Positions 14,803-55,915 of a DNA stretch of 64,000 nt are shown here, in pieces (position 1 is the first letter of the stretch; each line of letters starts with the position of its first letter). The notes below the pieces were generated by a model. It saw nothing but the letters and a program-made list of their open reading frames with translations, was not told where the DNA came from and ran no database searches. Where the stretch lies: contig JACDUA010000010.1 in assembly GCA_013519935.1 (NCBI GenBank), positions 1 to 64,000 of the forward strand. The letters are read 5' to 3'. The stretch is from Ectothiorhodospiraceae bacterium WFHF3C12. Lineage in GTDB: Bacteria; Pseudomonadota; Gammaproteobacteria; Nitrococcales; Nitrococcaceae. The translations under genes and the position numbers were made by a program.

Positions 14803-14924
14803 AGTGCTCCCGCCTGGTGGGTCCGACTGTTGCGGCCTATTACACGCCCGAGCCGGGCGTCGGGGCAACACGAGCCAGGGAAGCGCTGCTCGGCCGGAGT
14901 CAAGGGGAACTGTTCAGCGTACAC

Positions 14925-16892
14925 CTAGCGGGGACGAAACGCGGCAACACGCTGGCGAAGCTCCCGCTGCCAGTGGGGGTGCGAGGCACTGCCGTAGCGC
15001 AGGGCGACGTAGAGGTCGACGATATGCTGCAGTTCCGCACGCCATTCGGGGCGCTCACGGGTTATTCGGGCCAGGTAGTCCCGCGGGCCCTCGCTGGCCC
15101 TGGGCGGATAGCCGGCACGGGCAAGCTTTCGGCCCAGTAGCTGGTAACTGCGCGCGGCCGGGTCCCGTGGGCGGCGCTCCCGGCCGCCCAGGAGGATGAA
15201 GGCGATGACCGCCAGTACGACGCCCAGGACCGTCGCCATGGCCATTGCGGTGCGTTGCCACGAGGCCAGGCCCAGGTGGCTGAGCACCTCCTGCTGAAGC
15301 TCGGGCCCGTAACCCAGCACCCAGCGGTCCCACAGGGCGTTGACCCGATCCCACTGCAGGCGCAGGTCCTTGACCCAGCTTTCGCCAAGCCGGGCCATGG
15401 CCGGCACTGGCTCGTCCTGTGACACGGCGCCGCCGAGGCCGGACTCCACCCGCGCGGGGGAAACGGCTGCCGTGGGATCAAAGCGCTGCCAGCCGCCATC
15501 CGGCAACCAGACTTCCGCCCAGGCATGGGCGCTGGACTGGCGCACGATCATGTAGCCGGCGTCGGGGTGGCGCTCGCCCCCCTGATAGCCGGTCACGACG
15601 CGGGCGGGGATCCCCGCGGCGCGCATCAACACGGTGAAGGCCCCCGCGTAATGCTCGCAAAAACCCCGGCGGGTCTCGAACAGGAACTCGTCCATGGTGT
15701 CGGCACCCAGCCGGGGTGGCTGCAACGTGTAGACGAAGGGTTCCTCCCGGAAGTGGCGCAGCGCGCGTTGCACGACCCCGCGGTCGTCGGCGGCCTGTTC
15801 GCGCCACCGCCCTGCCAGCGCCCGCGTGCGCGGGTGTACACCCTCGGGCAGAGACGTCAGGCGGCGGCGCTGCGATTCGCCAAGCCGTGGCTCCAGGGTG
15901 TGTTCGGTGTACGAGCGCAACCGGTACCGGGTGGTTTCGTAGATGCGGCTATTGGCCTTTACCTCCGCGGCTGCGGTGAGCCGGGCGTCCTTCGGTGGCG
16001 CGCCGGGGAGGTCCAGCGCCAGGAGCCAGACCTGGTTATGCGGCTGAAGATAGACCGTGTAATCCGTGGGCGAGCCCCGCAGTATGCCCTCGGGCGGATC
16101 GCCGAAATCCTGGGCTTCACCGCGGGACCAGGTGCGGCCGTCGTAAGCGTCCAGCACGGGGCCGCGCCAGTAGCGCTGATCCGCAGCCGGCGGCTCGCCG
16201 TCGAACTCCACGCGAAAGGCCACGGCGTCCGACTGGCTGAGCTGGCTGATGCTGCCGGGGCTCATCGAATCGCTGAGGCCCGTCACGCCGCCGTGGGCGT
16301 CGTCAGGCAGCCCCCAAAGCGGTCCGGAGACCCGCGGCACGAGGATGAAGAGCACCACCATCACCGGCACTGCCTGCAGGAGCAGCTTCGCGGCAGTGCC
16401 CGCGTACCGCCAGGGGCGGCCGACCGCCGTCTGCCTGGAGACACTGATCAGCACCGCCGTGGTCAGCCACACCACGCCGAGGAGGTAGAGCAGGAACGGC
16501 AGGGACTGGTCGAACAGGAACTGGGTGGCGGCCAGGAAGTAGCACAGATACAGCGTGATCAGGGTGTCGCGCTTGTCCCGCAGCTCCAGAAGCTTGAGTG
16601 CCGTCATGAGGGCCAGCAGCGCCACACCGGCGTTGCGTCCGGTTATGCTCCCGAAGGTCAGGAGGACCCCGATGGTGGCGGCGACGGTCAGGGTGATGCG
16701 CAGCCAGCGTGGCGGCGGCAACCGGCCCTGGCGCGCCAGCAGGTATCGCCAGGCACAGAGAATGAAATAGGCGGCGGTCACCCACAGCGGCAGATGGAGC
16801 GTGTGCGGCAGCACGACGGCAATGACGGTGGTCATCAGCGCGGTGATTACCGGCAGCGAGAGCCACTGGGTTGAGGACTGGGCGCTGCTCAT
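14925..16892 (-). CDS. tgpA: DUF3488/transglutaminase-like membrane protein (TgpA)
   Basis: A 655-residue protein. About six membrane segments fill the first ~190 residues, followed by a periplasmic region with a transglutaminase core. The cysteine lies in RRGFCEHYAGAF, the histidine in SAHAWAEVWLPDGG, and the aspartate in RFDPTAAV. Another membrane segment near residue 560 (MAMATVLGVVLAVIAFILLG) precedes a cytoplasmic tail. This is the TgpA/YebA-type architecture. The ATG overlaps the DUF58 stop as ATGA, so the moxR-DUF58-tgpA genes form one coupled operon. Confidence 0.93.
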   Translation of the reverse strand: MSSAQSSTQWLSLPVITALMTTVIAVVLPHTLHLPLWVTAAYFILCAWRYLLARQGRLPPPRWLRITLTVAATIGVLLTFGSITGRNAGVALLALMTALKLLELRDKRDTLITLYLCYFLAATQFLFDQSLPFLLYLLGVVWLTTAVLISVSRQTAVGRPWRYAGTAAKLLLQAVPVMVVLFILVPRVSGPLWGLPDDAHGGVTGLSDSMSPGSISQLSQSDAVAFRVEFDGEPPAADQRYWRGPVLDAYDGRTWSRGEAQDFGDPPEGILRGSPTDYTVYLQPHNQVWLLALDLPGAPPKDARLTAAAEVKANSRIYETTRYRLRSYTEHTLEPRLGESQRRRLTSLPEGVHPRTRALAGRWREQAADDRGVVQRALRHFREEPFVYTLQPPRLGADTMDEFLFETRRGFCEHYAGAFTVLMRAAGIPARVVTGYQGGERHPDAGYMIVRQSSAHAWAEVWLPDGGWQRFDPTAAVSPARVESGLGGAVSQDEPVPAMARLGESWVKDLRLQWDRVNALWDRWVLGYGPELQQEVLSHLGLASWQRTAMAMATVLGVVLAVIAFILLGGRERRPRDPAARSYQLLGRKLARAGYPPRASEGPRDYLARITRERPEWRAELQHIVDLYVALRYGSASHPHWQRELRQRVAAFRPR

Positions 16893-45031: not shown

Positions 45032-45126
45032 TTAGCGAAGGTTAGCCTGTTCGGTGGGCGAGGGTAATGTCCAGTGACAAGTGGCCTGGGAGTTTCGCGG
45101 CCACGTCGTCGTGTTGCCGGTGGGCG

Positions 45127-45167
45127 AAAAAAGAAACCCGCAGGTCGTCACCGACCAGCGGGTTTTT
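45127..45167 (-). terminator. Rho-independent terminator, probably the original ssrA terminator
   Basis: The stem pairs AAACCCGC (45134-45141) with GCGGGTTT (45158-45165) and GGTCG with CGACC around a TCAC loop. Read on the minus strand it is followed by C and six T. It lies 6 bp beyond the copy of the tmRNA 3' end at 45174. This is where a terminator would follow ssrA before the island inserted. It also has a T5 run on the plus strand and may work both ways. Confidence 0.8.
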
Positions 45168-45173
45168 GATGTG

Positions 45174-45188
45174 TGGTGGAGGCGGCGG
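45174..45188. other. attL core (copy of tmRNA 3' end)
   Basis: TGGTGGAGGCGGCGG, the complement of the tmRNA terminus CCGCCGCCTCCACCA. It is followed by unrelated sequence (CCGCCTCTCTAAAATATC), unlike the intact copy at 55558. No gene occupies 45189-45451; that stretch presumably holds arm-type sites and the int promoter. Confidence 0.85.
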
Positions 45189-45451
45189 CCGCCTCTCTAA
45201 AATATCATCCTGTTTCAGGGAACTTCATAACCCACTGTCCTGAAAAGGCATATCCGCCTTCCCTTGTTTCAGACCGTATCACCGAGTATCGTTCAATAGC
45301 AACGTTTTTGTTGGACGGATGCGTGGACGCCATGCGGGCGCATAGGTTCGGTTCCCGCCCCGACAAGATCGTTGATGGAGGTTTTGGTGTTCTCCCTCGC
45401 AAGCTGCTGATAAGGCCCTGGGTTTGGCTGCGAGGTTATGTGGAGACTCGG

Positions 45452-46684
45452 ATGCCGAAGAAAGCGCCGGAGTTGTCGGCCCTGGCCGTGCGTCGCTTGG
45501 AAAAGCCTGGCCTTCACTCGGTCGGCGGCGTCGCCGGCCTGCTGCTGCGAATATCTGACACGGGCGCCCGGTACTGGGTGCTGCGAACGACTGTCGCCGG
45601 GAAGCGTCGCGACATAGGCATTGGGCCGTACCCGGAGATATCTCTGGCCAGGGCGCGAGAGAACGCCGCAGAGATGCGCGAACAGGCTCGCAGCGGCATT
45701 GATCCCGTGGCTCACCGAAACGCCGCACGCGCCGCCTTGCGCGATGCACAAGCGAGGGCGCTAACGTTCGAGCAAGCGGCCCGGCAGTGCCACAAGGCGA
45801 AGGAAACCGAGTTTCGCAATGCCAAGCACCGCAAGGACTGGATCAGCTCCCTTGAGCGCTATGTGATTCCCCGGCTCGGAACCATACCCGTGTCCGAAAT
45901 CGAGCTACCGCACGTCCTACAGGTGCTCGAACCGATCTGGCATGAGCGCACCGAGACCGCCACCAGAGTGCGCCAGCGCATGGAGGCGGTGCTTACCTGG
46001 GCGACCGTTTCGGGTTACCGCCAGGGAGAGAATCCCGCCAGGTGGACCGGCAATCTTGAGGTGGCCTTACCGGCGCCGCGGAAGATCCGCAAGGTGAAGC
46101 ACCAGCGGGCATTGCCGTGGCAGGAAGTGCCGGCGTTCATGGAGGCGCTGCGTCAGCGTGAGGGCATGGGGGCAAGGGCGCTTGAGTTCGCAATTCTAAC
46201 GGCAGCCCGAAGCGGCGAAGTGCGCTATGCGGTATGGAATGAAATCGACCTGGACGGCCGTGTGTGGACCGTGCCGGCCGACCGGATAAAGGCGGGGCGC
46301 GAGCACCGCGTGCCGCTGTCTGACGACGCTGTGAATCTGCTGAAGGGGCTTCCACGCATGGCTGAAAGCCCCTACGTGTTTCCGGCGCCACGCGGCGGCG
46401 CGCTCTCTGACATGACCGTATCGGCTGTGACCAAACGCATGGGCGTTGACGCCGTGCCCCATGGCTTTCGGTCGTCGTTCAAAGACTGGGCCCGCAACCG
46501 GACGGCGTTCGCTGACGAGGTGAGTGAATTGGCCCTCGCACACGTAAACAGCGACGCCACACGCGCGGCCTACGCGAGGGATGAGTTGTTGCCGCAGCGG
46601 GCACGTTTGATGAAACAGTGGGCGAATTTCTGTCGCGAAGGCGCGCCGGAAGGATCTGTGGTCAGCATCCGGGAGGGTAGGTGA
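45452..46684 (+). CDS. int: Tyrosine recombinase, P4-type integrase
   Basis: A 410-residue integrase, the usual size. An N-terminal arm-binding domain (DUF4102; RYWVLRTTVAGKRRDIGIGP) precedes a core-binding domain and the catalytic domain with R253 (TAARSGEV), H337-x2-R340 (HGFRSS), H364 and nucleophile Y374 (RAAYARDELL). All five key residues are present, so it should be active. Members of this family commonly target tRNA and tmRNA genes, and the direct repeat confirms ssrA as the site here. The frame is open further upstream, across attL, but the ATG at 45452 with GGAG upstream gives the normal N-terminus. Its TGA overlaps the next gene. Confidence 0.95.
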   Translation: MPKKAPELSALAVRRLEKPGLHSVGGVAGLLLRISDTGARYWVLRTTVAGKRRDIGIGPYPEISLARARENAAEMREQARSGIDPVAHRNAARAALRDAQARALTFEQAARQCHKAKETEFRNAKHRKDWISSLERYVIPRLGTIPVSEIELPHVLQVLEPIWHERTETATRVRQRMEAVLTWATVSGYRQGENPARWTGNLEVALPAPRKIRKVKHQRALPWQEVPAFMEALRQREGMGARALEFAILTAARSGEVRYAVWNEIDLDGRVWTVPADRIKAGREHRVPLSDDAVNLLKGLPRMAESPYVFPAPRGGALSDMTVSAVTKRMGVDAVPHGFRSSFKDWARNRTAFADEVSELALAHVNSDATRAAYARDELLPQRARLMKQWANFCREGAPEGSVVSIREGR

Positions 46685-47304
46685 TGCGCCTAGATCCTCC
46701 GCGAAAGCCTGGTGCTGGCCCGCTTCGCGAACCAGATCCGGATGAGGATGAGTTCTTCCTCATGCATCTTCAGGTGCTTGAGAGTTTGTATTTCAAGGAT
46801 GGCAGTCCAGTACATGCAATGGACGCCATAATTTTCGCCTACGATGCGGGTATTGTTCCTCCGACCTGGGCCATGGACTGGTTGGTGCCTGCCTTTCGAG
46901 AATATACGGACGCTGAAGGGCAGGTGGAGTTGCCGCACCTACTCGGGTTGGGTTCACAAGGGAAGGGCAGAGCGCCTCCCGTGCGCAAGTTCTTCGCGGA
47001 TGCACAGCGCCGCTACAAAGCGCAGCTCGTCCACATTCTGACTGTTGCGTTCAGCGTTCCCATACAAGACGCGGCAGTCATGGTGTGGGCGCGAGAGAAC
47101 GGCGTTGAGGATGATCCGGATGGTAGACGGGCGGGTTGGCTTGCTGAGCAATATAGTCGCAAATGGCGGAAGGAATTTGATAAGGAGGCCCGCGAAGGTA
47201 TTGATGTAACCGAAATGTACGTTGGGCACGAACGTTCTCCGGAATGGAGAAAAGAGTTCATAGAGTCATTCCCGTCCGAGCTCCTTCCGCCTGGGTTGAA
47301 ATGA
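46684..47304 (+). CDS. Hypothetical island protein
   Basis: A 206-residue protein of unknown function. It is acidic at its N-terminus (PDPDEDEFF), has a helical middle part (KKFFADAQRRYKAQLVHIL-like pattern of charged residues) and a charged C-terminal helix (WRKEFDKEAREG, EWRKEFIESF). No membrane or signal segment is seen. The ATG overlaps the integrase stop (TGATG), so the two are translationally coupled, suggesting a role tied to integration, excision or its control. Codon use is less GC-rich than in the core genome. Confidence 0.7.
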   Translation: MRLDPPRKPGAGPLREPDPDEDEFFLMHLQVLESLYFKDGSPVHAMDAIIFAYDAGIVPPTWAMDWLVPAFREYTDAEGQVELPHLLGLGSQGKGRAPPVRKFFADAQRRYKAQLVHILTVAFSVPIQDAAVMVWARENGVEDDPDGRRAGWLAEQYSRKWRKEFDKEAREGIDVTEMYVGHERSPEWRKEFIESFPSELLPPGLK

Positions 47305-47344
47305 TTATTTGAGCCCATTCTAGGCCAGGCTCCCCGCTGATGTA

Positions 47345-47380
47345 CTGCACCCGTACGCAAGCAAACGGCACAGGGTGCAG
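47345..47380. promoter_or_regulatory. Inverted repeat upstream of the AlpA-like gene
   Basis: CTGCACCC (47345-47352) and GGGTGCAG (47373-47380) form a perfect 8 bp inverted repeat with a 20 bp spacer, ending 4 bp before the ATG at 47385. The position fits an operator for a small DNA-binding protein or an RNA hairpin masking the ribosome site. No experimental parallel is claimed. Confidence 0.4.
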
Positions 47381-47384
47381 CAAC

Positions 47385-47603
47385 ATGAATTTTCCCCAAC
47401 CTCGCAAGATCGGCCACGCCACGTTGTGGCGGCTCCACGATCTCCAGCGCTACGAAGCGCTTTGTTCCGGTGAGGCCGAACCAGCCGACCCGTTGCCGGA
47501 GAGCGAACGCTTTCTAACCGTCAAGCAAGTAGCTGCTCGCTATGGGAAGTCGCCAGTGACGATCTGGCGATGGGCGCAGGCGTCCCGGACGGCTGCGGCG
47601 TAA
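47385..47603 (+). CDS. AlpA-like DNA-binding protein, rearranged or truncated
   Basis: A 72-residue protein. Its first half, FPQPRKIGHATLWRLHDLQR, matches the C-terminal half of AlpA-type excisionase/regulators. Its second half, RFLTVKQVAARYGKSPVTIW, matches their N-terminal helix-turn-helix. The order is therefore opposite to a normal AlpA, and the copy of the second motif stops at WRWAQASRTAAA. It could be the remains of two tandem AlpA domains or a real permuted form. AlpA proteins control excision in P4-like elements, and the location after int suits that. There is a longer in-frame start at 47340, but that would cross the inverted repeat. Confidence 0.6.
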   Translation: MNFPQPRKIGHATLWRLHDLQRYEALCSGEAEPADPLPESERFLTVKQVAARYGKSPVTIWRWAQASRTAAA

Positions 47604-47612
47604 GGAAACCCA

Positions 47613-48335
47613 ATGAGCGTTCGGGCCATGGCTGCCGCATGGGCGATCCAGGTCGCGCCGACCGAGAAGCTGGTGCTCCTCGCGCTGGCCGACCACGCCA
47701 ATGACGAGACTTGTGAGTGCTGGCCTTCCTTAACACACCTTTGCCGAAAAACCGGCTTAGCCCGGAGCACTGTGGCGAAAGCGCTGAAGGCGCTTGAGGC
47801 GCGATCCGTAATCACCCGAAAGCCACGGGGCACCACGACCACCGTCTACCGCTTGAACGTATCTCACTGGTCCGAGAGGCGAACTAGTCCGGGAGGCGAA
47901 CTAGTCCGAGAGCCGGACGGGGGTAGTCCGAGAGCCGGACCAGAGGTAGTCCGAGAGCCGGACGGGGGTAGTCCGAGAGCCGGACCCGGAACCATCAAGG
48001 AACCAGAAGTAGAACCATCAAGGAACCAGAAGGCGGGCTCCGACAAGCCAAGCAACCGCGAACGACGAGATGCCGCCCAGCGCGTTTTGGCATTTCTCAA
48101 CGAGCGAGCTGGCAAGAAGTTCCGCCATGTAGATACCCACCTGGTGCCAATCATGCAGCGCATGGACAGCGGAATCACCGAGCAGGACCTGCGCATGGTT
48201 GTGGCTCGCAAGTGCCGCCAATGGAAGGGCACGGATATGGATAGCTACCTGCGCCCCGCGACGCTCTTCAACAAAACCAAGTGCGAGCAATACGTGGGCG
48301 AGTTGGTGCCGCCGAAGGAGGCCGTGAATGAGTGA
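47613..48335 (+). CDS. Phage-type replication protein (HTH_36 plus conserved phage C-terminal domain)
   Basis: A 240-residue protein. Residues ~15-80 are a winged helix (APTEKLVLLALADHANDE and RKTGLARSTVAKALKALEAR). A proline- and glycine-rich linker of short repeats (VREPDGGSPRAGPE twice) follows. Residues ~150-232 match the conserved phage C-terminal domain found in phage replication initiators (LNERAGKKFRHVDTHL ... YLRPATLFNKTKCEQYV). The linker DNA forms iteron-like repeats. The protein likely binds the island origin and recruits host helicase, by analogy with lambda O. The start ATG has AAGGAAA upstream. Confidence 0.85.
   Translation: MSVRAMAAAWAIQVAPTEKLVLLALADHANDETCECWPSLTHLCRKTGLARSTVAKALKALEARSVITRKPRGTTTTVYRLNVSHWSERRTSPGGELVREPDGGSPRAGPEVVREPDGGSPRAGPGTIKEPEVEPSRNQKAGSDKPSNRERRDAAQRVLAFLNERAGKKFRHVDTHLVPIMQRMDSGITEQDLRMVVARKCRQWKGTDMDSYLRPATLFNKTKCEQYVGELVPPKEAVNE
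47868..48032 (+). repeat. Iteron-like repeats inside the replication gene; candidate origin
   Basis: Copies of T(A/G)GTCCG(A/G)GAG(G/C)CG start at 47868, 47885, 47902, 47924, 47947 and 47969. The last four share TAGTCCGAGAGCCGGAC with 22-23 bp spacing and a short inner palindrome (GTCCG...CGGAC). They are followed by a 21 bp direct repeat (GAACCATCAAGGAACCAGAA plus G) at 47989 and 48012, at the same ~23 bp spacing and lower GC. Four phased iterons then less GC-rich repeats inside an initiator gene recall the lambda origin in gene O. Confidence 0.7.
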
Positions 48336-48918
48336 CACCACCTGTCCCGACTGCGGCGACCGGATCTCTGCCGACGCCAGGGCCTGCGCCTGCGGGTGGA
48401 CGGCAGAAAGAGGCCACGGCCAGCCGGCAGGGGACGCTCAACGCCACCGCTGCGCCATGACCAGCTCCGCCGGCCGCTGCACGCAGCCCGGAACCGTTAG
48501 CAATTCAATCGGTGAGGACGCGCGCTACTACTGCCCGTGGCACTGGAAGTCGTTGGGCAACCCAACGTTGGCGGCGCGCCTGGTTGAGGACCTGCAGCGC
48601 GATCCGCCGCCGCGGGTGGGTGACTGGCGGGACCGTGCGGTGGATGAAGAGATGGTCACGCTGGACCTGTTCCGCCGGCAAGACGAGACGATGGAGGAAT
48701 ACCGGGAACGCGGCCGGGAGCTCTATCGACAGGCCCTGGAGCGGCGCGCGGCCAGGCAGGCCCAGTACTCAGGCCAAAAGCAGCGCAAGGCGGAAGCTAA
48801 CGCCGAGCTGGCGCTGGAGAAGTTCAGCGAGCACGCCGCGCGCCTCGAGGCGGACGGCTACCCACGGGACGAGGCCGAGCAGATTGCCATGGGGCAGTTG
48901 CTCGCGGACGCAAGCTGA
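48328..48918 (+). CDS. Zinc-ribbon island protein of unknown function
   Basis: A 196-residue protein. The N-terminus CPDCGDRISADARACACG holds four cysteines in a zinc-ribbon layout, and a second Cys/His set follows (HRCAMTSSAGRCTQPG ... YYCPWHW). The C-terminal half is a charged helix (EEYRERGRELYRQALERRAA) that may form a coiled coil. Such two-part proteins occur in phage replication regions, but no function is known to me. It overlaps the replication gene by 8 bp, so the two are coupled. Confidence 0.75.
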   Translation: MSDTTCPDCGDRISADARACACGWTAERGHGQPAGDAQRHRCAMTSSAGRCTQPGTVSNSIGEDARYYCPWHWKSLGNPTLAARLVEDLQRDPPPRVGDWRDRAVDEEMVTLDLFRRQDETMEEYRERGRELYRQALERRAARQAQYSGQKQRKAEANAELALEKFSEHAARLEADGYPRDEAEQIAMGQLLADAS

Positions 48919-48928
48919 GGCCACTGCC

Positions 48929-49183
48929 GTGCCCCAATACACCACACCCTCCGAACTGGCCGAAGAGCTGGCACCGATTCAGACGGACATCCAGGGCCTG
49001 GAGGAGGAGTGCACGGAGCTGCGCTCCCGGGTCGAAGACCTGGAAAGCCAGGTGCCAGACCTTGAGAAGGAGAACGAGGAGCTGCGCTCCCGTGTCGAGA
49101 GCCTGGAGCGGCGATTGGCAGACCTGGAAGACGACGTCACCGACGCCCGATCTGAGATTCGCCAGGTGCGGGAAGATGGGTGA
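48929..49183 (+). CDS. Small coiled-coil protein
   Basis: An 84-residue protein starting at GTG 48929, with GAGG 9 bp upstream. From residue ~15 to the end it is a continuous heptad pattern (LEEECTELRSRVEDLESQV, ENEELRSRVESLERRLADL), strongly acidic/basic and without Cys or Pro breaks. It probably forms a rod-like dimer or trimer. In phage islands such proteins may act as scaffolds or regulators; here its position a little before the capsid gene makes scaffolding a speculative option. Confidence 0.65.
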   Translation: MPQYTTPSELAEELAPIQTDIQGLEEECTELRSRVEDLESQVPDLEKENEELRSRVESLERRLADLEDDVTDARSEIRQVREDG

Positions 49184-49276
49184 GCGGGTCCTTCCTGGTA
49201 AGGCTGCGATACGGGGACGCAGCACCGCATTTTCTCTAGAGATTTGGCGGCCCATAAGGGGTTCCGGTTCCGGCGT

Positions 49277-49684
49277 ATGAGCACCCAGCACCTCCAACGG
49301 CTGCGGGACGAGATCCGAGATCCTGATCTACTGCGCTGGTTCGATCAGGCTGTCCAGCAATGGCGCGCCGGCGAATTACTCGAGCGTGCCATGGGACTCT
49401 CAGGGCCGCGCGCGGTGCAAACCAGGAACGCCGCGGTGCGTCGTGTCGCGGACCTAGTCGACGCGGCTGGTGAGCTCTCGCCTTGGCGCCGTGCGGAGGA
49501 AGTTAGGCGACACGTGTGCCACTTCGAGTCTGTGGTATGGCCTCGGCTACGCCAGCAAGCCGGTTCAGACGATCTGCCGCCGTTGAAGGCAACCCTCAGA
49601 ACCTGGCTAACCGTGGAGTCCTCCGAGGGGGTGCGTCCTATTCGCAACCGGCGCTCAATCTTCGAGGTAATCCGGACTGAATGA
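49277..49684 (+). CDS. Hypothetical island protein
   Basis: A 135-residue, arginine-rich helical protein (LQRLRDEIRDPDLLRWFDQA, VRRVADLVDAAGELSPWRRA). I recognise no domain. It could bind DNA or RNA given its charge, but this is not shown. The ATG at 49277 has AAGGGG 18 bp before it; an in-frame ATG at 49244 would add 11 residues. It lies between the coiled-coil and capsid genes on the same strand. Confidence 0.6.
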   Translation: MSTQHLQRLRDEIRDPDLLRWFDQAVQQWRAGELLERAMGLSGPRAVQTRNAAVRRVADLVDAAGELSPWRRAEEVRRHVCHFESVVWPRLRQQAGSDDLPPLKATLRTWLTVESSEGVRPIRNRRSIFEVIRTE

Positions 49685-49753
49685 ATTTCCCAACTCATTC
49701 AGTGGATGCCGTGGAAGATGGGACCGTCGATCACTCCAAGAGGCACAGCGACG

Positions 49754-50827
49754 ATGCTTGAACCGACAACGAACTGCACGGCGTTCACCCCGTCCGACAT
49801 CCGCGACGCCGGCGCAGACTTCCTCGCTAAGGCCATGGGCGCCAACCCGGTGCATCCGCACCCAGTCTCCGATCAGATGCGACTCCGCGAGCTCACGCTG
49901 GCCGAGGCGGCATACATCCTGGGCGAACCGGAACTGAAGCGGCGGGGCGCGAGCGGTAAGAGCGCTAGCTCCATCGTCGCTGCGGGCCTGACAACCGATG
50001 ATTTCGGTTCCATCCTGGAGGCGTCCGTGGCCCGGCTGGTGGCGCAAGCCTACCGAGCCGCCGCCGAGCATCGCGCCTTGCTCCATCCCTATCCGCTCCC
50101 GAACTACCATCCGGCCGAGATCGCCACCGTGGACGTGGATGTTGACGTGGGCGAGGTCACCGAGCTGCAAGAGCTGCCCTTGGTCCAGGTGGACGTGGGC
50201 GCCGGCAACGTCGCGCAGGTCCAGGCCTACGCCGCCAACCTGGTGGTCAGCTACAAGCTAGTGGTCAACGATGACCTGGACGCGCTTACCACGATGGCCC
50301 GCGCTATGGCGGTATCGGCGGCACGGCGTGAGGCCCGCGTCCTCTACGAGTTCCTGGAGGGCAATCCAACGATGGGCGATGGTCAGGCAATGTTCCATGC
50401 TGACCACGGCAACCTGCTCTCGGGCATTGGGGCGCTCGGACCGGCCACGCTCGGCACAGCCATGGCAGCGCTGCGGGACCAGCAGACACCGGGAGGCCAG
50501 TACGCCAACCACGGACTGGAGACGCTACTGGTCAACTCGGCCGATGAGCAGGTGGCTCGACAGGTGGTGCGTGACACAGGCAGTGAGGCCCGCGTGATCG
50601 CCGCGCCCTGGATTGGCTCCGGCAATTTCTATGCGATGGCCGCGCCGGCAACGGCCCCGACCATCGCCATGGTCTACCTGGGACCGCGTGGCGACACCGC
50701 AATGCAGACGGTACGCGTCAGCCGGCGACCGCCCGACCGGACCCACCGTCGTACCGGCGTAGAGATCGCCCACGACTTCGGCTTTGCCCCGGTCAGCCGG
50801 GTGGGCATCGTCAAGGCTACAAACTGA
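49754..50827 (+). CDS. Phage major capsid protein, HK97-fold, of the protease-fused (U35) type but lacking the protease
   Basis: A 357-residue protein. TSDFxxxL-like TTDDFGSILEASVARLVAQAY, then VSYKLVVNDDLDALTTMARA (~165-185), MGDGQAMFHADHGN (207-220) and the C-terminal VEIAHDFGFAPVSRVGIVKATN match the capsid half of ClpP/U35-protease-capsid fusion proteins of tailed phages. In those phages the protease is fused at the N-terminus and the total is over 600 residues; here the frame begins directly in the capsid part and no protease, portal or terminase is found nearby. The sequence shows no internal stop. It could supply a satellite's own capsid, or interfere with a helper's assembly. Confidence 0.85.
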   Translation: MLEPTTNCTAFTPSDIRDAGADFLAKAMGANPVHPHPVSDQMRLRELTLAEAAYILGEPELKRRGASGKSASSIVAAGLTTDDFGSILEASVARLVAQAYRAAAEHRALLHPYPLPNYHPAEIATVDVDVDVGEVTELQELPLVQVDVGAGNVAQVQAYAANLVVSYKLVVNDDLDALTTMARAMAVSAARREARVLYEFLEGNPTMGDGQAMFHADHGNLLSGIGALGPATLGTAMAALRDQQTPGGQYANHGLETLLVNSADEQVARQVVRDTGSEARVIAAPWIGSGNFYAMAAPATAPTIAMVYLGPRGDTAMQTVRVSRRPPDRTHRRTGVEIAHDFGFAPVSRVGIVKATN

Positions 50828-50838
50828 GAGGGCACACT

Positions 50839-51063
50839 ATGAGTAAGCGAGGCGACGAATCCCCGGACGAGGCCGTGGGCCGGTTGATGCTGGCAGCTGC
50901 CAAGAAGGCGGCCCCCGATATCCGCGCGGCCTTCGAGTTGGCCATTGCCGAGAACGGTCATACCGGCTCCGTCCTGGACCTGGTGGAAGACGTTTTCACG
51001 CCGGCCTTGGCCGAGCACTTCGGTAACGAATTCGTCACACGGAGCAAGCCGTTCTCGGCTTGA
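50839..51063 (+). CDS. Small hypothetical protein following the capsid gene
   Basis: A 74-residue acidic helical protein (EAVGRLMLAAAKKAAPDIRA, LDLVEDVFTPALAEHFG). It starts 12 bp after the capsid stop behind GAGAGGG, so it is probably cotranslated with the capsid protein. Its size and place fit a head-completion or decoration protein, but there is no recognisable motif, so this is inference. Confidence 0.6.
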   Translation: MSKRGDESPDEAVGRLMLAAAKKAAPDIRAAFELAIAENGHTGSVLDLVEDVFTPALAEHFGNEFVTRSKPFSA

Positions 51064-51359
51064 GGCATGTCGGCATTGCTCGGGGCAAGGATGAGCGGAT
51101 CAGTCGGCGAGTGCCGCGGCCCCGAAAAACCCCGACAACGAGCGGCGCTTGGTACTCCTCGTGGCGCGCGGCTCGACTGCGCCGGCCTCGGCCGGGATGC
51201 ACCTCGCAGCGCCGCCGCAACATCGGCGGGCAAAGCGGTTTCCGTTGGCGGCGGCACGGTGCAGACCTCCGGGTCCTTCATGCAGAAACGCTACACGGGT
51301 AATTCGGACCCCATTCGCGTCGGAGATTTGTCCCGCCATAGGGGGTTGTACTAGTAGCC
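51064..51359. other. Spacer without a convincing gene
   Basis: All plus-strand frames here are either interrupted or encode Arg/Pro/Ala-rich sequence typical of shadow frames (for example 51067-51354). No ribosome site precedes the available starts. It may be remains of a lost head-tail gene, but I cannot support one. Confidence 0.5.
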
Positions 51360-51704
51360 ATGCCTCGCTCTATCACCTGCCGACGCTGCGGCCGTGACCG
51401 GCCAGCCGATGAGTTTCAGCGCCAGCCGGACTGCCGGCACGGCTACCGCCCCACCTGCTCGCGTTGCCGCCAGGTTCTCTACCGCGAGCGTCACGGATTC
51501 TCCTGGACCGTATGTTGGCTGGAGAAGGCATGCACGATCTGCGGAGTTGTGCAGCCACTGGATCAGTTCTTCCGGCGGCCGGACGCCTATGACGGTCGCG
51601 ACGGCCGTTGTCGGTCGTGCAGCGCCACGCGCCATCGCAGCCGCCGACGTCGCGAAAAGGGCCTGGCCGACAGGGCCGAGCAGCAAATGGCGCTGGCATT
51701 CTGA
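51360..51704 (+). CDS. Protein with two zinc-finger modules of the HNH-associated type
   Basis: A 114-residue protein with two copies of a C-x2-C ... C-x2-C module: CRRCGRDRPADEF with CSRCRQ, and CTICGVVQPLDQFF with CRSCSATRH. This module often precedes HNH nuclease domains in phages (the 'KxCxxCG...F...C..C' pattern), yet no HNH domain follows; the chain ends in a basic helix (RHRSRRRREKG). It may bind DNA. Start ATG 51360. Confidence 0.7.
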   Translation: MPRSITCRRCGRDRPADEFQRQPDCRHGYRPTCSRCRQVLYRERHGFSWTVCWLEKACTICGVVQPLDQFFRRPDAYDGRDGRCRSCSATRHRSRRRREKGLADRAEQQMALAF

Positions 51705-51718
51705 GAGAGGTATAGCCC

Positions 51719-52096
51719 ATGACGACAGGAACGCGCTTTGTGGTCTCGGCGTTGGACGGCGAGGGGCGCTACTACGGGAACCGCGGTGATGGCACGACCG
51801 CGGAGCTGATAAGGCTAGGTATATCGACTGCCCAAGCTGACAGCTCGGTCTCCACGTTCGGCGCCGCGCAAGTGAACAAGCGCGCGATTACGGCACTCAA
51901 TGAGTCCGGGTCGGAGACGCTGTACGCGCGCAATCTGGGGTCGGGAAAAGCCGCGATATTTTATGCGCTGGGGTCACCGGCCGTGAAGATCGATGCGGGC
52001 GGAATCCTGGAGAATCGAGATCAACCCCGGGGAAGCCGAGATCGCCTGCAAGCCGGTTCAGCGGCAGAAGTCCTGGGGGTTGGTGCAATACGGTGA
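51719..52096 (+). CDS. Hypothetical protein, possibly the first half of a frameshifted gene
   Basis: A 125-residue reading frame from ATG 51719, with AGAGAGG upstream. It begins TGTRFVVSALDGEGRYYGNR and looks protein-like to about residue 92 (GSGKAAIFYALGSPAVKI). The tail after that (NRDQPRGSRDRLQ) looks like out-of-frame sequence, while in the +1 frame the same DNA reads WRIEINPGEAEIACKPVQ. The simplest view is one gene with a frameshift near 51985-52020. No function is known. Confidence 0.55.
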   Translation: MTTGTRFVVSALDGEGRYYGNRGDGTTAELIRLGISTAQADSSVSTFGAAQVNKRAITALNESGSETLYARNLGSGKAAIFYALGSPAVKIDAGGILENRDQPRGSRDRLQAGSAAEVLGVGAIR

Positions 52097-52415
52097 GCAG
52101 GAGACCGTCCACCGTCTCCTGCGCGGCTACTCAATTTCATTGCCGACTGTTCTCGCCCATTCCGGATTCAGCGCCATACAGCAACAGCAGATCGTGGGAA
52201 AGCTCGGCTACCTCACGATGCCGCTCGGCATTGAGAGCATGCCGATCCATGATGCGATACGCCTGGCCGAGCTGCTGGTGGAGGTGACGATTCGCTTCAC
52301 GGCGTTCCTGCCGGGCCAGGACACCATACTCGGTCCAATCGACATTGCGGCGATTACGCGGCACGAAGGCTTTCGGTGGGAGAGGCGGAAGCCGGAGTTC
52401 GGATTGACTGGCTAG
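51993..52415 (+). CDS. Hypothetical protein, possibly the second half of a frameshifted gene
   Basis: A 140-residue reading frame that overlaps the previous one by 104 bp in the +1 frame. It has good protein-like composition (RIEINPGEAEIACKPVQ, LLRGYSISLPTVLAHSGFS, DAIRLAELLVEVTIRFTAF, GPIDIAAITRHEGFRW). Without the frameshift the two would give a protein of about 230 residues. Alternatively it is a separate overlapping gene starting at ATG 51993. It is convergent with the minus-strand three-gene set at 52459. Confidence 0.5.
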   Translation: MRAESWRIEINPGEAEIACKPVQRQKSWGLVQYGEQETVHRLLRGYSISLPTVLAHSGFSAIQQQQIVGKLGYLTMPLGIESMPIHDAIRLAELLVEVTIRFTAFLPGQDTILGPIDIAAITRHEGFRWERRKPEFGLTG

Positions 52416-52458
52416 CGGTCAATTCACTGACTTGAAAACTTTGCCGGTGCGGGCGCGC

Positions 52459-52932
52459 TTAACTGCCCGGACTGTCTTCCCCTTGCTGATTCGGGTGCTG
52501 CTCGACGCGCAGTGCCCCCGCGGGAATAGTGCCATCCTCTGTGACCACTCGCACCCGAATGTGGCCCGGGCCCTCAAAATGAATCGGCGGGCTATGAAGG
52601 ATTATCTGCAATTTGGTGACACGATCAGGGCTGCCGTCGTTCGCTGCTTCCGCTTGCTCTGCCATCTGCGCTAGCTGTTCTTCTTTAAACTCGGTCGAAA
52701 CCAGTTCCTCGTCGTCCCTGAGGACCTGCAATCCGAGTTGCTTGAACGGCCTTGATACTGGTGTCACCACTGAAATGACGAAAGCTAAGCCACGGATATC
52801 GAACGGGAACGATTCCACGTACATCGCAGCGCCGTAAACCCCGATGAAAAGAAGTTTCCCGCTATCCTCTCGACGCACATCGTCGCAGAAGAAGGTATAA
52901 GCGTGTCGAGTAACCTCTAGAAGTTCGGTCAC
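52459..52932 (-). CDS. DUF6941-like protein coupled to a toxin-antitoxin pair
   Basis: A 157-residue beta-rich protein starting ELLEVTRHAYTFFCDDVRRE, with DSGKLLFIGVYGAAMYV and LAFVISVVTPVSRPF. The opening 'FFCDDVRxExxGKxxxIGVY' resembles DUF6941 proteins; this assignment is from memory and tentative. It has no signal or membrane segment. Its GTG start overlaps the antitoxin stop (GTGA), so it is the third gene of a toxin-antitoxin operon. Its role there is unknown. Confidence 0.6.
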   Translation of the reverse strand: MTELLEVTRHAYTFFCDDVRREDSGKLLFIGVYGAAMYVESFPFDIRGLAFVISVVTPVSRPFKQLGLQVLRDDEELVSTEFKEEQLAQMAEQAEAANDGSPDRVTKLQIILHSPPIHFEGPGHIRVRVVTEDGTIPAGALRVEQHPNQQGEDSPGS

Positions 52933-53405
52933 GACTCTCGCCTCTGATTCTCAATGGCGTCAGCTATGGTATTCAAATCGACGCCGAGAACTTCACTTAA
53001 CCGTCGGCAGGTCGAAAGCCAGACTTGGTTCACACCACGTTCGAGCCGCGCGATTTGAGGCTGGCTAGTCTGAGCGAGTTTCGCAAGCTCCCTCTGAGAG
53101 AGCCCCGCACGTAGACGAAGACCCTTGAGACTCATCGGAGCCTCCGAGAAGAAGTTCTCGGCTAGCCAATGTCGAGCATTGGACAGATGGTCGTTTGTCT
53201 CGGGATCTTCACTCCAGTCAGCGACTAAATCGTCGATATCCGTGAACTTGGCAGTGCCGTCATCCGTTGGCGTCTTGTAGTCCTGAAGATCAATAACGGC
53301 AGCGGCGCTACTGGTCCGGACGGACGCCTGGCCAGTATCGATGGCTTCATGGGAGGTCGTCGTACGCTGCGAGGATCCGCCTTGTGAGTTCGCTGTTTTC
53401 GTCAT
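52929..53405 (-). CDS. XRE-family antitoxin
   Basis: A 158-residue protein. The first ~60 residues are low-complexity and Ser/Thr-rich; residues ~95-150 form a helix-turn-helix (LRLRAGLSQRELAKLAQTSQ, QPQIARLERGVNQVWLST). The C-terminal position of the DNA-binding domain is typical for antitoxins encoded after a RelE/ParE toxin. The ATG at 53405 lies 59 bp inside the toxin gene; ATG 53468 is a longer alternative. It should repress the operon and neutralise the toxin. Confidence 0.82.
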   Translation of the reverse strand: MTKTANSQGGSSQRTTTSHEAIDTGQASVRTSSAAAVIDLQDYKTPTDDGTAKFTDIDDLVADWSEDPETNDHLSNARHWLAENFFSEAPMSLKGLRLRAGLSQRELAKLAQTSQPQIARLERGVNQVWLSTCRRLSEVLGVDLNTIADAIENQRRES

Positions 53406-53742
53406 AGTCAAAGCTCCGGTCGCAGACGCCGAGGACGTAGTACGTGCGATAGGTCGGGACGTACGCATAAACGATACGGTACTGGAGCTCCTTGTCCTCC
53501 AGATCCCAGATCTTCAGCCTCCAAAGATCACGCCCCCGGTTCCATTGCTGTAACCACTTGTTCACATGGAAGTCCGCCGTTCGGCTCGCGCCAAAATCGT
53601 GGTCAGTCAGCCTGTCCAGAAGGTCCTGGTCAGTCTTGATCTCCTGGAGTAGGGTCGCGATCTGTGTCGCGGCCTCCGGGAATTGGTCGCGGAGTGCCTG
53701 AAGGTCTGCGCGGGCATTGTGATGGACCTTAAGGCTGTACAC
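53347..53742 (-). CDS. RelE/ParE-superfamily toxin
   Basis: A 131-residue protein. The order helix-helix-beta sheet is visible: KVHHNARADLQALRDQFPEA, then WNRGRDLWRLKIWDLEDKEL and YRIVYAYVPTYRTYYVLGVCDR, as in RelE/ParE/HigB toxins. Basic and aromatic residues in the RLKIWDLE and YRIVYAYV strands suit mRNA cleavage or gyrase inhibition; which one is unclear. The start is GTG at 53742. It precedes the antitoxin gene, the HigBA-like order. The promoter should lie in 53743-53830. Confidence 0.83.
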   Translation of the reverse strand: MYSLKVHHNARADLQALRDQFPEAATQIATLLQEIKTDQDLLDRLTDHDFGASRTADFHVNKWLQQWNRGRDLWRLKIWDLEDKELQYRIVYAYVPTYRTYYVLGVCDRSFDYDENSELTRRILAAYDDLP

Positions 53743-54389
53743 GATATCGACCTAGATATATTGGGGCAAGCGTAGCCCAGCTTCAACGACTTTATTCACA
53801 CTGTAGCTCCGATCACCAATGCTATGCGATGTCATGCGACCCGGTCTCGGTAACAAGTCTTGAGGATTGGATGCCGACAAATTGCCAGGTCGTTGCGGGC
53901 CCCGAACGGAGTCTCCGGCCCGTTATCGGCAGGACGACGTCCTGCCTGCTACGCCCATCGGGACTCTGGTGCGTGACGCCGCCTACTGTAGTTGCAGGAA
54001 TCCCTACTGTCCCCTTGGATATGGCCCAGCCACGTGGTGTAGCGAAACTGCAGGTCGGGTCGACAGCTTCGAAATTCTTCGCTTTGCGCTGATTGCATGA
54101 TCGCCTCTATCATCTTCCCTATGGGCACGAATGCGCCAGCCCGTCGGTCTCTCACATTGGTATGTGGTCTGTCCACGGCCGTCCTTACCGTAGTAATCGA
54201 CGTTTCTGCAGAGTTCGCTGGCGACGATGTTCCCCTCGACGCGCGGACTAGCCAAACGAAGTTCGTATCGAGCGCGCGCGCCGCTCTCACTCACGGGGTT
54301 TCAGCGGCAGGTGTGATAGAAAAGGAACTCGATAGAGGCGAGTCGGCCGGCCTCCAAGTGGGGGACAGTAGTACAATGGGTGTTGCTGG
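53743..54389. other. 647 bp island segment without a supported gene
   Basis: Composition drops to roughly balanced GC, and every open frame (for example 53829-54092 plus, 53949-54290 minus, 54097-54393 plus) has an unlikely composition. The first ~90 bp must hold the toxin-antitoxin promoter. The rest may hold an RNA, binding sites or decayed coding sequence; I see no CRISPR-like or tRNA-like structure. Confidence 0.5.
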
Positions 54390-54872
54390 GTGAGCACGCG
54401 GGGGGTCTTCGATTTATCTACCCCCAACGACCTCCTGCGTAAGCTGGAATGGGAATTTCAGCAATTGAGGTCGGACCCGGCTAATGCGTTCGTAGCGTTC
54501 AACTTCTTCGTAACGGCTTGGCACTTGCTGGAGTGGCTGCATCCAGATCCCGACGGCAAAGGGACTCGCGCCGAGATTCGTAATGCGACTCCAATCTTGC
54601 AGGTTTGTGAACACATCGCGGTTGGCGCGAAACACTTTGAACCGACCAGTACGCGGCTTTCAGCAGTAAAGGACTACGGCAGGGGCAAGGTTTGGGCGAA
54701 AGGGGTCTGGGCGCCGCGTGTGTGGGCCGATGGTGTTTGGGCAACTTGGTTGGAGGTCGAACTGGATGGCCCGGCCAAACAGGGCTTGGGGGAGTCTGTC
54801 AGAGCGGATGCGCTAGCAAACCAAGTGTTGGATTTTTGGCGGCGCGAGCTCGGCTCGTCACAGCAGACATAA
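54390..54872 (+). CDS. Hypothetical protein
   Basis: A 160-residue, mostly helical protein with a convincing amphipathic pattern (DLLRKLEWEFQQLRSDPANA, FVAFNFFVTAWHLLEWLHPD, ILQVCEHIAVGAKHFEP). A tryptophan-rich stretch with short repeats (VWAKGVWAPRVWADGVWATW) lies near residue 105-125. No known domain is recognised. Start GTG 54390 has no clear ribosome site. It lies between the non-coding segment and the island's right end, in the cargo zone. Confidence 0.65.
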   Translation: MSTRGVFDLSTPNDLLRKLEWEFQQLRSDPANAFVAFNFFVTAWHLLEWLHPDPDGKGTRAEIRNATPILQVCEHIAVGAKHFEPTSTRLSAVKDYGRGKVWAKGVWAPRVWADGVWATWLEVELDGPAKQGLGESVRADALANQVLDFWRRELGSSQQT

Positions 54873-54950
54873 GCCGCGTGCTGTCGTCATGACCGTAACC
54901 TGACGCCTCTGGACGATGATGGGTAACGAAGCTGGGTTTGTTTATTGAGA

Positions 54951-54972
54951 AAGCCGGCGCTGAGGCCGGCTT
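54951..54972 (-). terminator. Hairpin terminator downstream of the minus-strand gene pair
   Basis: AAGCCGGC and GCCGGCTT pair around a 6-nt loop, 8 bp after the stop codon at 54980 on the minus strand, followed by TCTCAATAAAC. The U-tract is poor, so strength is uncertain. It ends the 55446-54980 operon. Confidence 0.55.
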
Positions 54973-54979
54973 GCTTCGT

Positions 54980-55138
54980 TCAGGCAACGGGGTTTGGCAA
55001 TCGTAATCGCCGCTCTCTGGCGTGGCGCTGGTGCTCGTCACAGAGTAGCGCTTCCCGGCCCTGGCCGAGCGGCCAATACGCCGACGCTTCCTTCCTGCAA
55101 CGCCCGCCACGGGTGGTGATGGCTTCACAGCGGTTCAT
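54980..55138 (-). CDS. 52-residue zinc-finger-like protein
   Basis: A small gene easily missed because of its length: MNRCEAITTRGGRCRKEASA, then YWPLGQGREALLCDEHQRH and a basic tail. The C-x10-C ... C-x2-H spacing is the zinc-binding 'CRxxTxxGRRCxxxA...CxxH' form frequent in phages and islands. The ATG overlaps the stop of the upstream gene (ATGA), strongly supporting translation. A hairpin follows the stop. Function unknown. Confidence 0.7.
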   Translation of the reverse strand: MNRCEAITTRGGRCRKEASAYWPLGQGREALLCDEHQRHARERRLRLPNPVA

Positions 55139-55446
55139 CGGCTTCCCTCCGAGTGGCGACGGGCGGCTTCGCTGAGGTCGGAGTGTGGGGAGTAGGGGTC
55201 AAGGCCGAACTCGTCGAGATACTCGATTGCCCGACGCTGGACCAGGTCACCCAGTAACTTCACGGCGTCCCCGAGCCCGCCGCGGACGTTCCCGGGTATC
55301 TCATCTTCCCCGAGTATGATTCCGATCGCGTACAGGCCATAGCCGGCGCTGTGGAGCTCCTGCAACTCTCTGGTGAGGGCCTCGATGGAGTGCTTCTCCT
55401 GGGCCTGCGTTACTGATGCGATGGTGTGTGCCTTTGGCGCAGACAT
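55135..55446 (-). CDS. Hypothetical protein at the island's right end
   Basis: A 103-residue protein with helical N-terminal half (TQAQEKHSIEALTRELQELH) and acidic C-terminal half (IEYLDEFGLDPYSPHSDL). A good ribosome site (AGGAG, 7 bp before) supports the ATG at 55446; the in-frame ATG at 55482 would add 12 residues. It is the first of a two-gene unit with the 52-residue zinc-finger gene, reading away from ssrA. No homologous family is recognised. Confidence 0.65.
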   Translation of the reverse strand: MSAPKAHTIASVTQAQEKHSIEALTRELQELHSAGYGLYAIGIILGEDEIPGNVRGGLGDAVKLLGDLVQRRAIEYLDEFGLDPYSPHSDLSEAARRHSEGSR

Positions 55447-55500
55447 AGCCTTTCTCCTGTTGTGGTGAACAGGGAAGGCCAAGCGTTTTCAGGTGGTGGG

Positions 55501-55540
55501 GTCAGTTGTTGGACGGCCTCGAAAGACCGTCCTAACTGAC
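55501..55540. promoter_or_regulatory. 40 bp imperfect palindrome beside the right attachment site
   Basis: GTCAGTT-gtt-GGACGG and CCGTCC-t-AACTGAC pair around CCTCGAAAGA. The palindrome begins 18 bp from the right core (55558). Being inside the island it may be a recombinase or excisionase arm site, or a hairpin that helps form the 3' end of ssrA transcripts now that the original terminator is far away. It lacks a U-tract. Confidence 0.5.
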
Positions 55541-55557
55541 TGATTTACAAAGATGAT

Positions 55558-55572
55558 TGGTGGAGGCGGCGG
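55558..55572. other. attR core within the ssrA 3' end
   Basis: TGGTGGAGGCGGCGG, the complement of the last 15 nt of tmRNA including CCA, followed by GAATCGAACCCGCG of the intact T-arm. It is identical to 45174-45188. Confidence 0.85.
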
Positions 55573-55915
55573 GAATCGAACCCGCGTCCGCAGGACCTCC
55601 GCCCTCGGATCTACATGCTTAGCCCGGTCTATTGTGTTTAACCGGTTACCGCCCGACGGGCAGGGCGATCAACCGGCGAGCCCGTTAAGGTTTCGCCTCA
55701 AAGGTCCGGGCAGCCAATGAGACTAGCCTGTGTGCTATGACCACCGCCAGGGACCACAGGCGATCGCCTGACTGGTGGCTCACGGGTTTTTAGGCCGCGA
55801 GAGCGTAGTTGTCGTCGTTGGCAACTATCTTTGGTGTCACATGATTTACGAGGGAAGTGACGTCCTCGGCATGCACCTCGGGTTTCGCGACCTGCGTCGA
55901 AGCCATGTCGCCCCC
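55558..55915 (-). ncRNA. ssrA: Transfer-messenger RNA (tmRNA)
   Basis: The 5' end GGGGGCGACATGGCTTCGAC (at 55915) and 3' end GGGTTCGATTCCCGCCGCCT then CCACCA form the tRNA-like domain; GGGGGCG pairs with CGCCTCC. The tag reading frame (55822-55790) is GCC AAC GAC GAC AAC TAC GCT CTC GCG GCC TAA, giving ANDDNYALAA, one residue different from the E. coli tag. With SmpB it rescues stalled ribosomes and marks proteins for proteolysis. The island inserted at its 3' end but restored a full CCA-encoding terminus, so it should be functional. smpB lies upstream. Confidence 0.95.

Follow-up and report, generated by a model that had tools for sequence, protein, structure and literature searches.

Two 15-bp copies of the 3' end of ssrA, the tmRNA gene, enclose an island of 10,384 bp in a 64,000-nucleotide stretch of the genome of Ectothiorhodospiraceae bacterium WFHF3C12 (contig JACDUA010000010.1, positions 1 to 64,000; hereafter the window). 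Its plus strand carries, in order, int, a gene of 207 amino acids (aa), an AlpA-like gene, rep with six iterons, two small genes, a gene that we call X, a capsid gene, a further gene, Y, a cos-like packaging site and a zinc-finger gene; downstream of the latter, cargo genes, mainly on the minus strand, reach as far as ssrA. X, Y, the cos site and a displaced ssrA-type terminator in the left flank are additions to the inventory of a first-pass annotation of this DNA, which had proposed a phage satellite. The main features are the following (L numbers are related islands and contigs, G numbers genomes):

45125-45165, minus: terminator-like hairpin and U-run in the left flank (fold -23.4 kcal/mol, z -4.3)
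45174-45188: attL, 15-bp copy of the ssrA 3' end, TGGTGGAGGCGGCGG (exact repeat)
45452-46684, plus: int, P4-type tyrosine integrase of 410 aa, best start 45452 (Pfam, three expected domains)
46684-47304, plus: conserved 207-aa gene between int and alpA, 34% identical to the gene at the same place in L009
47340-47603, plus: AlpA/excisionase-like helix-turn-helix (HTH) protein (phrog_1553, 5e-8)
47613-48335, plus: rep, replication initiator (HTH_36 and Phg_2220_C; Pfam/PHROG matches)
47868-47985: six iterons, TAGTCCGAGAGCCGGAC-like, within rep (read from the sequence)
49277-49684, plus: X, 135-aa all-helical protein, common to many related islands
49754-50827, plus: lone HK97-fold capsid protein, 357 aa (Phage_capsid_4)
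50839-51063, plus: Y, 74-aa protein, 73-76% identical in L009/L010
51271-51313, plus: cos-like packaging site, GGGTCCTTC...CGGGTAATTCGGACCCC, with the motif GGTAATTCGGACC at 51298
51360-51704, plus: double zinc-finger protein directly after cos, at the place of terS in L009/L010 (phrog_1035, endonuclease VII, 3e-15, zinc-binding part only)
55558-55572: attR, the identical 15 bp (TGGTGGAGGCGGCGG), forming the 3' end of the tmRNA gene, which is intact (exact repeat)
55558-55915, minus: tmRNA (ssrA) gene, intact

The perfect tmRNA-end repeat claimed for both edges was confirmed, and TGGTGGAGGCGGCGG has exactly two copies in the whole window. The left hairpin, which was found by direct folding and missed by a terminator scan, lies outside the attL core at a distance of about 10 nt; its strand and spacing are as one would expect of the ssrA terminator. 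It is thus probably the original terminator, cut off by the island, and the insertion point is most likely between ssrA and its terminator. The empty site was sought via the methyltransferase gene of the left flank; none was found, this gene not being syntenic in the relatives.

The integrase is intact as first annotated, with R253, H337, R340, H364 and Y374 all present, and is 60% identical to that of island L012; the short AlpA-like protein is 48% identical to its L012 homologue. The phage replication protein with internal iterons was also borne out, and the six-copy array inside rep is likely the replication origin. This module has an O-like initiator where phage-inducible chromosomal islands (PICIs) usually have a primase. 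Only one structural gene, that of the capsid, was found in 45174-55572, not a full structural set; portal and large terminase (TerL) had no profile match in this or the syntenic islands described below, and no lysis genes were seen among the proteins of the island, as judged from Pfam/PHROG scans only.

The lone capsid, its neighbouring genes and the cos-like site

In the Pfam/PHROG scans, the capsid protein aligns solely with the C-terminal half of phage protease-capsid fusions. Its AlphaFold model (predicted local distance difference test, pLDDT, 88.6) matches HK97-type capsids in the PDB, with modest TM-scores of about 0.33-0.63 (best E-value 5e-10, probability 1.00), and has a long helix (175-202) at the expected place of the spine helix. 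Family match and fold model thus agree with the first-pass annotation on a lone HK97-fold capsid gene, and on these alignments the protein descends from a protease-capsid fusion of which the protease half was lost. A single-sequence scan of genome contigs found no relative, an alignment scan of them only two, both already found in the genome search, and tblastn against phages and plasmids returned distant fused capsids only. X usually lies directly upstream of the capsid gene in related islands. Its fold model is of similar quality (pLDDT 89.4); it had no PDB match and no known fold in the fold search, and no match to phages by tblastn.

The cos motif GGTAATTCGGACC was derived from a 76-nt repeat around the X-capsid pair in L011 and L012. 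A longer cos pattern has a single occurrence in the 4.6-Mb genome, located in the island. The motif occurs in at least 120 IMG/VR stretches, and 22 of the 120 listed (contigs L015-L134) start exactly at GGTAATTCGGACCC, which suggests that these starts are physical DNA ends. A GGGTCC-like element lies upstream in 67 of the 92 listed copies with enough upstream sequence, and terS, when counted as detectable with a two-sequence TerS profile, lies within 1.8 kb downstream in 28 of 109 listed stretches. Phage contigs with this site have the order cos - TerS - TerL - portal - protease/capsid. A large group of tailed phages appears to have GGTAATTCGGACC(CC) as its cos core; when 85 nt of phage cos sequence were searched against named phages, the single match was at chance level and there was no strong one. 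In L009 and L010, a cos variant, CGGGTCATTCGAGG, stands directly ahead of terS.

In L011 (10220 and 12364, minus strand) and L012 (3396 and 5966, minus strand), X-capsid stands between two cos copies of like orientation, spaced 2.1-2.6 kb apart. The downstream copies have GGGTCC; at this place the upstream ones read GGTACT. GGTACT is found in one of the 92 listed IMG/VR copies, yet is present in L010, L011, L012 and L014. Such elements and paired sites may mark the exchange of cassettes at cos.

One IMG/VR contig, L065 (IMGVR_UViG_3300028430_000815), has the order int - AlpA-like - cos - X-like - protease-capsid fusion. Its terminal repeat of 141 bp indicates that it is probably a circle of 10,351 bp. 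This circular relative bears on the idea that the capsid was domesticated on an immobile island, as an encapsulin-like compartment or a phage-blocking decoy. The HK97-fold gene does stand alone, and encapsulins are among the structural matches of the model alongside phage capsids. By sequence, however, the protein matches phage capsid families only, not the encapsulin family, and phage capsids are its nearest kin. Moreover, a cos site and a replicon lie in the same island, in which no encapsulin-type cargo enzyme was seen. Together with L065, this makes domestication highly improbable.

Related islands and the history of the capsid

Relatives were sought with the capsid in the order, and with X in the class, order and phylum. 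X occurs with a lone capsid in L009, L010, L011, L013, L147, L148 and L153, with a complete protease-capsid fusion in L012 and L014, and with no capsid of the window's family seen in L151, L249, L250 and L251. The shared order is int - AlpA - replication - X - capsid - cos/TerS, often followed by a tape-measure-like gene. The syntenic islands (those with a lone capsid) span 9.4-12.9 kb and have intact att repeats of 25-102 bp. L009 and L010 reside in one genome (G038), at tRNA-Lys and tRNA-Val, L011 at tRNA-Met and L013 at tRNA-Gln. The att repeats measure 49 bp in L009, L148 and L153, 102 in L010, 47 in L011, 58 in L013 and L151, 16 in L012, 25 in L147, 48 in L149, 44 in L249 and 20 in L250; among these 12 islands, L147 alone is not at a tRNA gene. 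The first-pass annotation had held that a lack of related islands with the same gene order would speak against a satellite; such islands were found in several other genomes, at tRNA genes except for L147. TerS was matched in L009, L013, L148, L151, L250 and L231, and by profile in L010, and a tape measure in L009, L010, L011, L147, L149 and L231.

Some of these relatives have peculiarities of their own. L149 (3016-10259, minus strand) is an X-type island with a lambda-type capsid E, an S49 protease, decoration protein D and a tape measure, and no portal or TerL match; its plan is that of the window island, with a different capsid family. A tail-tip-like protein (Phage-tail_3 and fn3) is encoded in the X-type island L151 (5402-7924, minus strand). 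In L009 (13328-16480), a reverse-transcriptase-like open reading frame (14831-16231, identified by eye) lies behind a shortened tape-measure gene, and this region may account for the larger size of that island.

Is the island what is left of a formerly complete prophage, now decaying after the loss of its portal, terminase and tail genes? Its capsid belongs to a phage protease-capsid family, terS and the tape measure are missing from it, and the tape-measure gene is shortened in L009, a capsid-carrying relative. However, the reduced plan recurs at different sites across several bacterial families. Between L009 and L010, the capsid has a ratio of nonsynonymous to synonymous substitution rates of 0.07, X one of 0.06 and TerS one of 0.10, and on these low values the three genes are maintained by purifying selection. 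In addition, lone capsids cluster instead of scattering among phages. The first-pass annotation had named a full prophage in close relatives as the finding that would turn the island into a remnant; it was looked for with the capsid, and no close relative was found to have a full prophage bearing it. We thus regard decay as very unlikely, and the satellite reading stands.

A tree was built of 94 capsids; the eight X-linked lone ones among them fall into a single group apart from the phage capsids (Shimodaira-Hasegawa-like approximate likelihood ratio test, SH-aLRT, 93). The capsids of L012/L014/L065, L231, L253 and L254 are placed outside this group, with at least five label changes in the tree. 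As the lone capsids group together while other satellite capsids fall elsewhere, we infer that satellites acquired capsids several times and that the capsid lineage of the window is old. One might tentatively go further and imagine an old satellite lineage that has its own protease-free capsid and X, often its own tape measure, and would set head size and tail length while taking portal, TerL and the remaining tail from a helper; X-capsid cassettes would be swapped at cos, leaving paired cos sites in some islands.

Place among known satellites

The island combines att repeats and an integrase, an AlpA-type regulator after int, a replication module, a cos-like site and a reduced structural set, all features of PICIs, as far as these can be judged from sequence. 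The plan is shared by EcCICFT073, an experimentally studied PICI of about 11 kb in E. coli CFT073 with int - AlpA - primase - SSB - lone capsid and no portal or TerL, packaged by lambda-like helpers (PMC6092414). The window capsid is of an unrelated family; EcCICFT073 matches by its integrase alone, with no detectable homologue of X, the capsid, Y or rep, and it differs further by a head decoration gene and by having a primase where the window island has the O-like Rep. In the cos-type satellite SaPIbov5, the capsid homologue Ccm is a lone HK97-fold protein of 355 aa, without its own protease, that occupies pentamers and converts the prolate shell of the helper into a small isometric one (PMC8569155). 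SaPIbov5 differs in its Gram-positive host and Stl-type control; Ccm is homologous to the phi12 capsid protein (24% identical), and its likeness to the 357-aa window capsid is one of length, fold and plan. PmCI172, a Pasteurella multocida PICI, likewise has a gene for a capsid homologue, and the capsids that it makes are small (PMC6893505); its helper is a Mu-like myovirus, and its likeness to the window island is by description only.

More distant satellites share single traits. The PLE of Vibrio cholerae provides a tape-measure protein of its own and forms chimeric tails (PMC12987554); several relatives of the window island have tape-measure-like genes, whereas the island itself has none. 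PLE remodels the coat proteins of its helper (PMC10945586), whereas the window island brings a capsid gene. The Psu/Delta/Sid and alpha primase families of P4-like satellites had no match among the proteins of the island.

Capsid-forming PICIs (cfPICIs) are expected to carry their own capsid plus portal and packaging genes. A cfPICI-like element would build the whole capsid itself and take the tails, here also the portal and terminase, from a helper. The capsid of the window island is satellite-encoded as in cfPICIs, which are known to make their own capsids; complete protease-capsid fusions are found in L012, L014 and L065, and L149 has capsid, protease and decoration genes. Some cfPICIs also carry putative tape-measure genes, tmp (PMC12987554). 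We nevertheless judge this reading unlikely, as neither the window island nor its syntenic relatives have a portal or large terminase by profile search, and the window capsid is without a protease.

Given the precedents of EcCICFT073, SaPIbov5 Ccm and PmCI172, which carry lone capsid homologues, the claim of the first-pass annotation that the island matches no known satellite type is not supported: judged by gene content, it is a new branch of the known cos-type PICI, not a new kind of element. What is new is a capsid derived from a fusion without its protease half, the X gene common to many islands, and the paired cos sites flanking X-capsid in two of them.

Cargo and proposed life cycle

The cargo at the ssrA end comprises:

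52459-52932, minus: DUF6941 protein (family scan)
52929-53468, minus: HTH_3 regulator, possible antitoxin (HTH_3, E=2e-11)
53347-53742, minus: weak ParE/RelE-like match, possible toxin (Pfam ParE, E=0.053)
54390-54872, plus: gene with no family match in family scans including PADLOC
54980-55138, minus: 52-aa protein, 59% identical to a protein at the distal end of L012

The toxin-antitoxin pair first annotated here (52929-53742) is weakly supported, the regulator matching well and the toxin poorly. PADLOC gave generic HTH matches only on the cargo. Ahead of these genes, 51719-52415 holds two overlapping frames, neither with a clear family (the second, 51993-52415, weakly matches phrog_5990), which may be one frameshifted gene.

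We consider it likely that the island is a cos-type, PICI-like satellite, as the syntenic islands with att repeats, the purifying selection on the capsid, the cos site and the lack of portal and TerL matches all support a satellite. Infection by a helper phage of the GGTAATTCGGACC cos family would be the trigger, upon which AlpA would switch the island on; the island would excise and then replicate from its iterons. The large terminase, portal and tail of the helper would package it from its cos site, while the lone capsid protein would co-assemble with, or replace, that of the helper to form a shell sized for a genome of about 10 kb, in the manner of SaPIbov5 Ccm. X, and perhaps Y, would most likely act as partners in capsid assembly or packaging, and the cargo might serve the host or exclude phages.

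Several observations weigh against this scheme. A helper was sought and none was found: outside the island, the window genome has no capsid of this type, and a TerL of this cos family is missing from it as well; the cos variant of L009/L010, searched in the G038 genome, is exact only in the two islands, and the TerL loci of G038 and G011 have no capsid of the window's family. Its nearest relatives have terS and tape-measure genes, neither of which is present in the island. The cos role of 51271-51313 is deduced from its location and from contig ends rather than from mapped cuts, and the lone-capsid clade is long-branched, with its SH-aLRT of only 93 coming from a quick search. Finally, the island could end up in full-size shells, which is apparently the case for EcCICFT073.

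If the island is a satellite of this kind, capsid-carrying PICIs, here with another capsid family, would extend to environmental Gammaproteobacteria. X and the cos motif would then serve as markers for finding many more such islands and their helpers, and the natural series of protease-capsid fusion, lone capsid, and capsid with tape measure would lend itself to testing how satellites control virion size.

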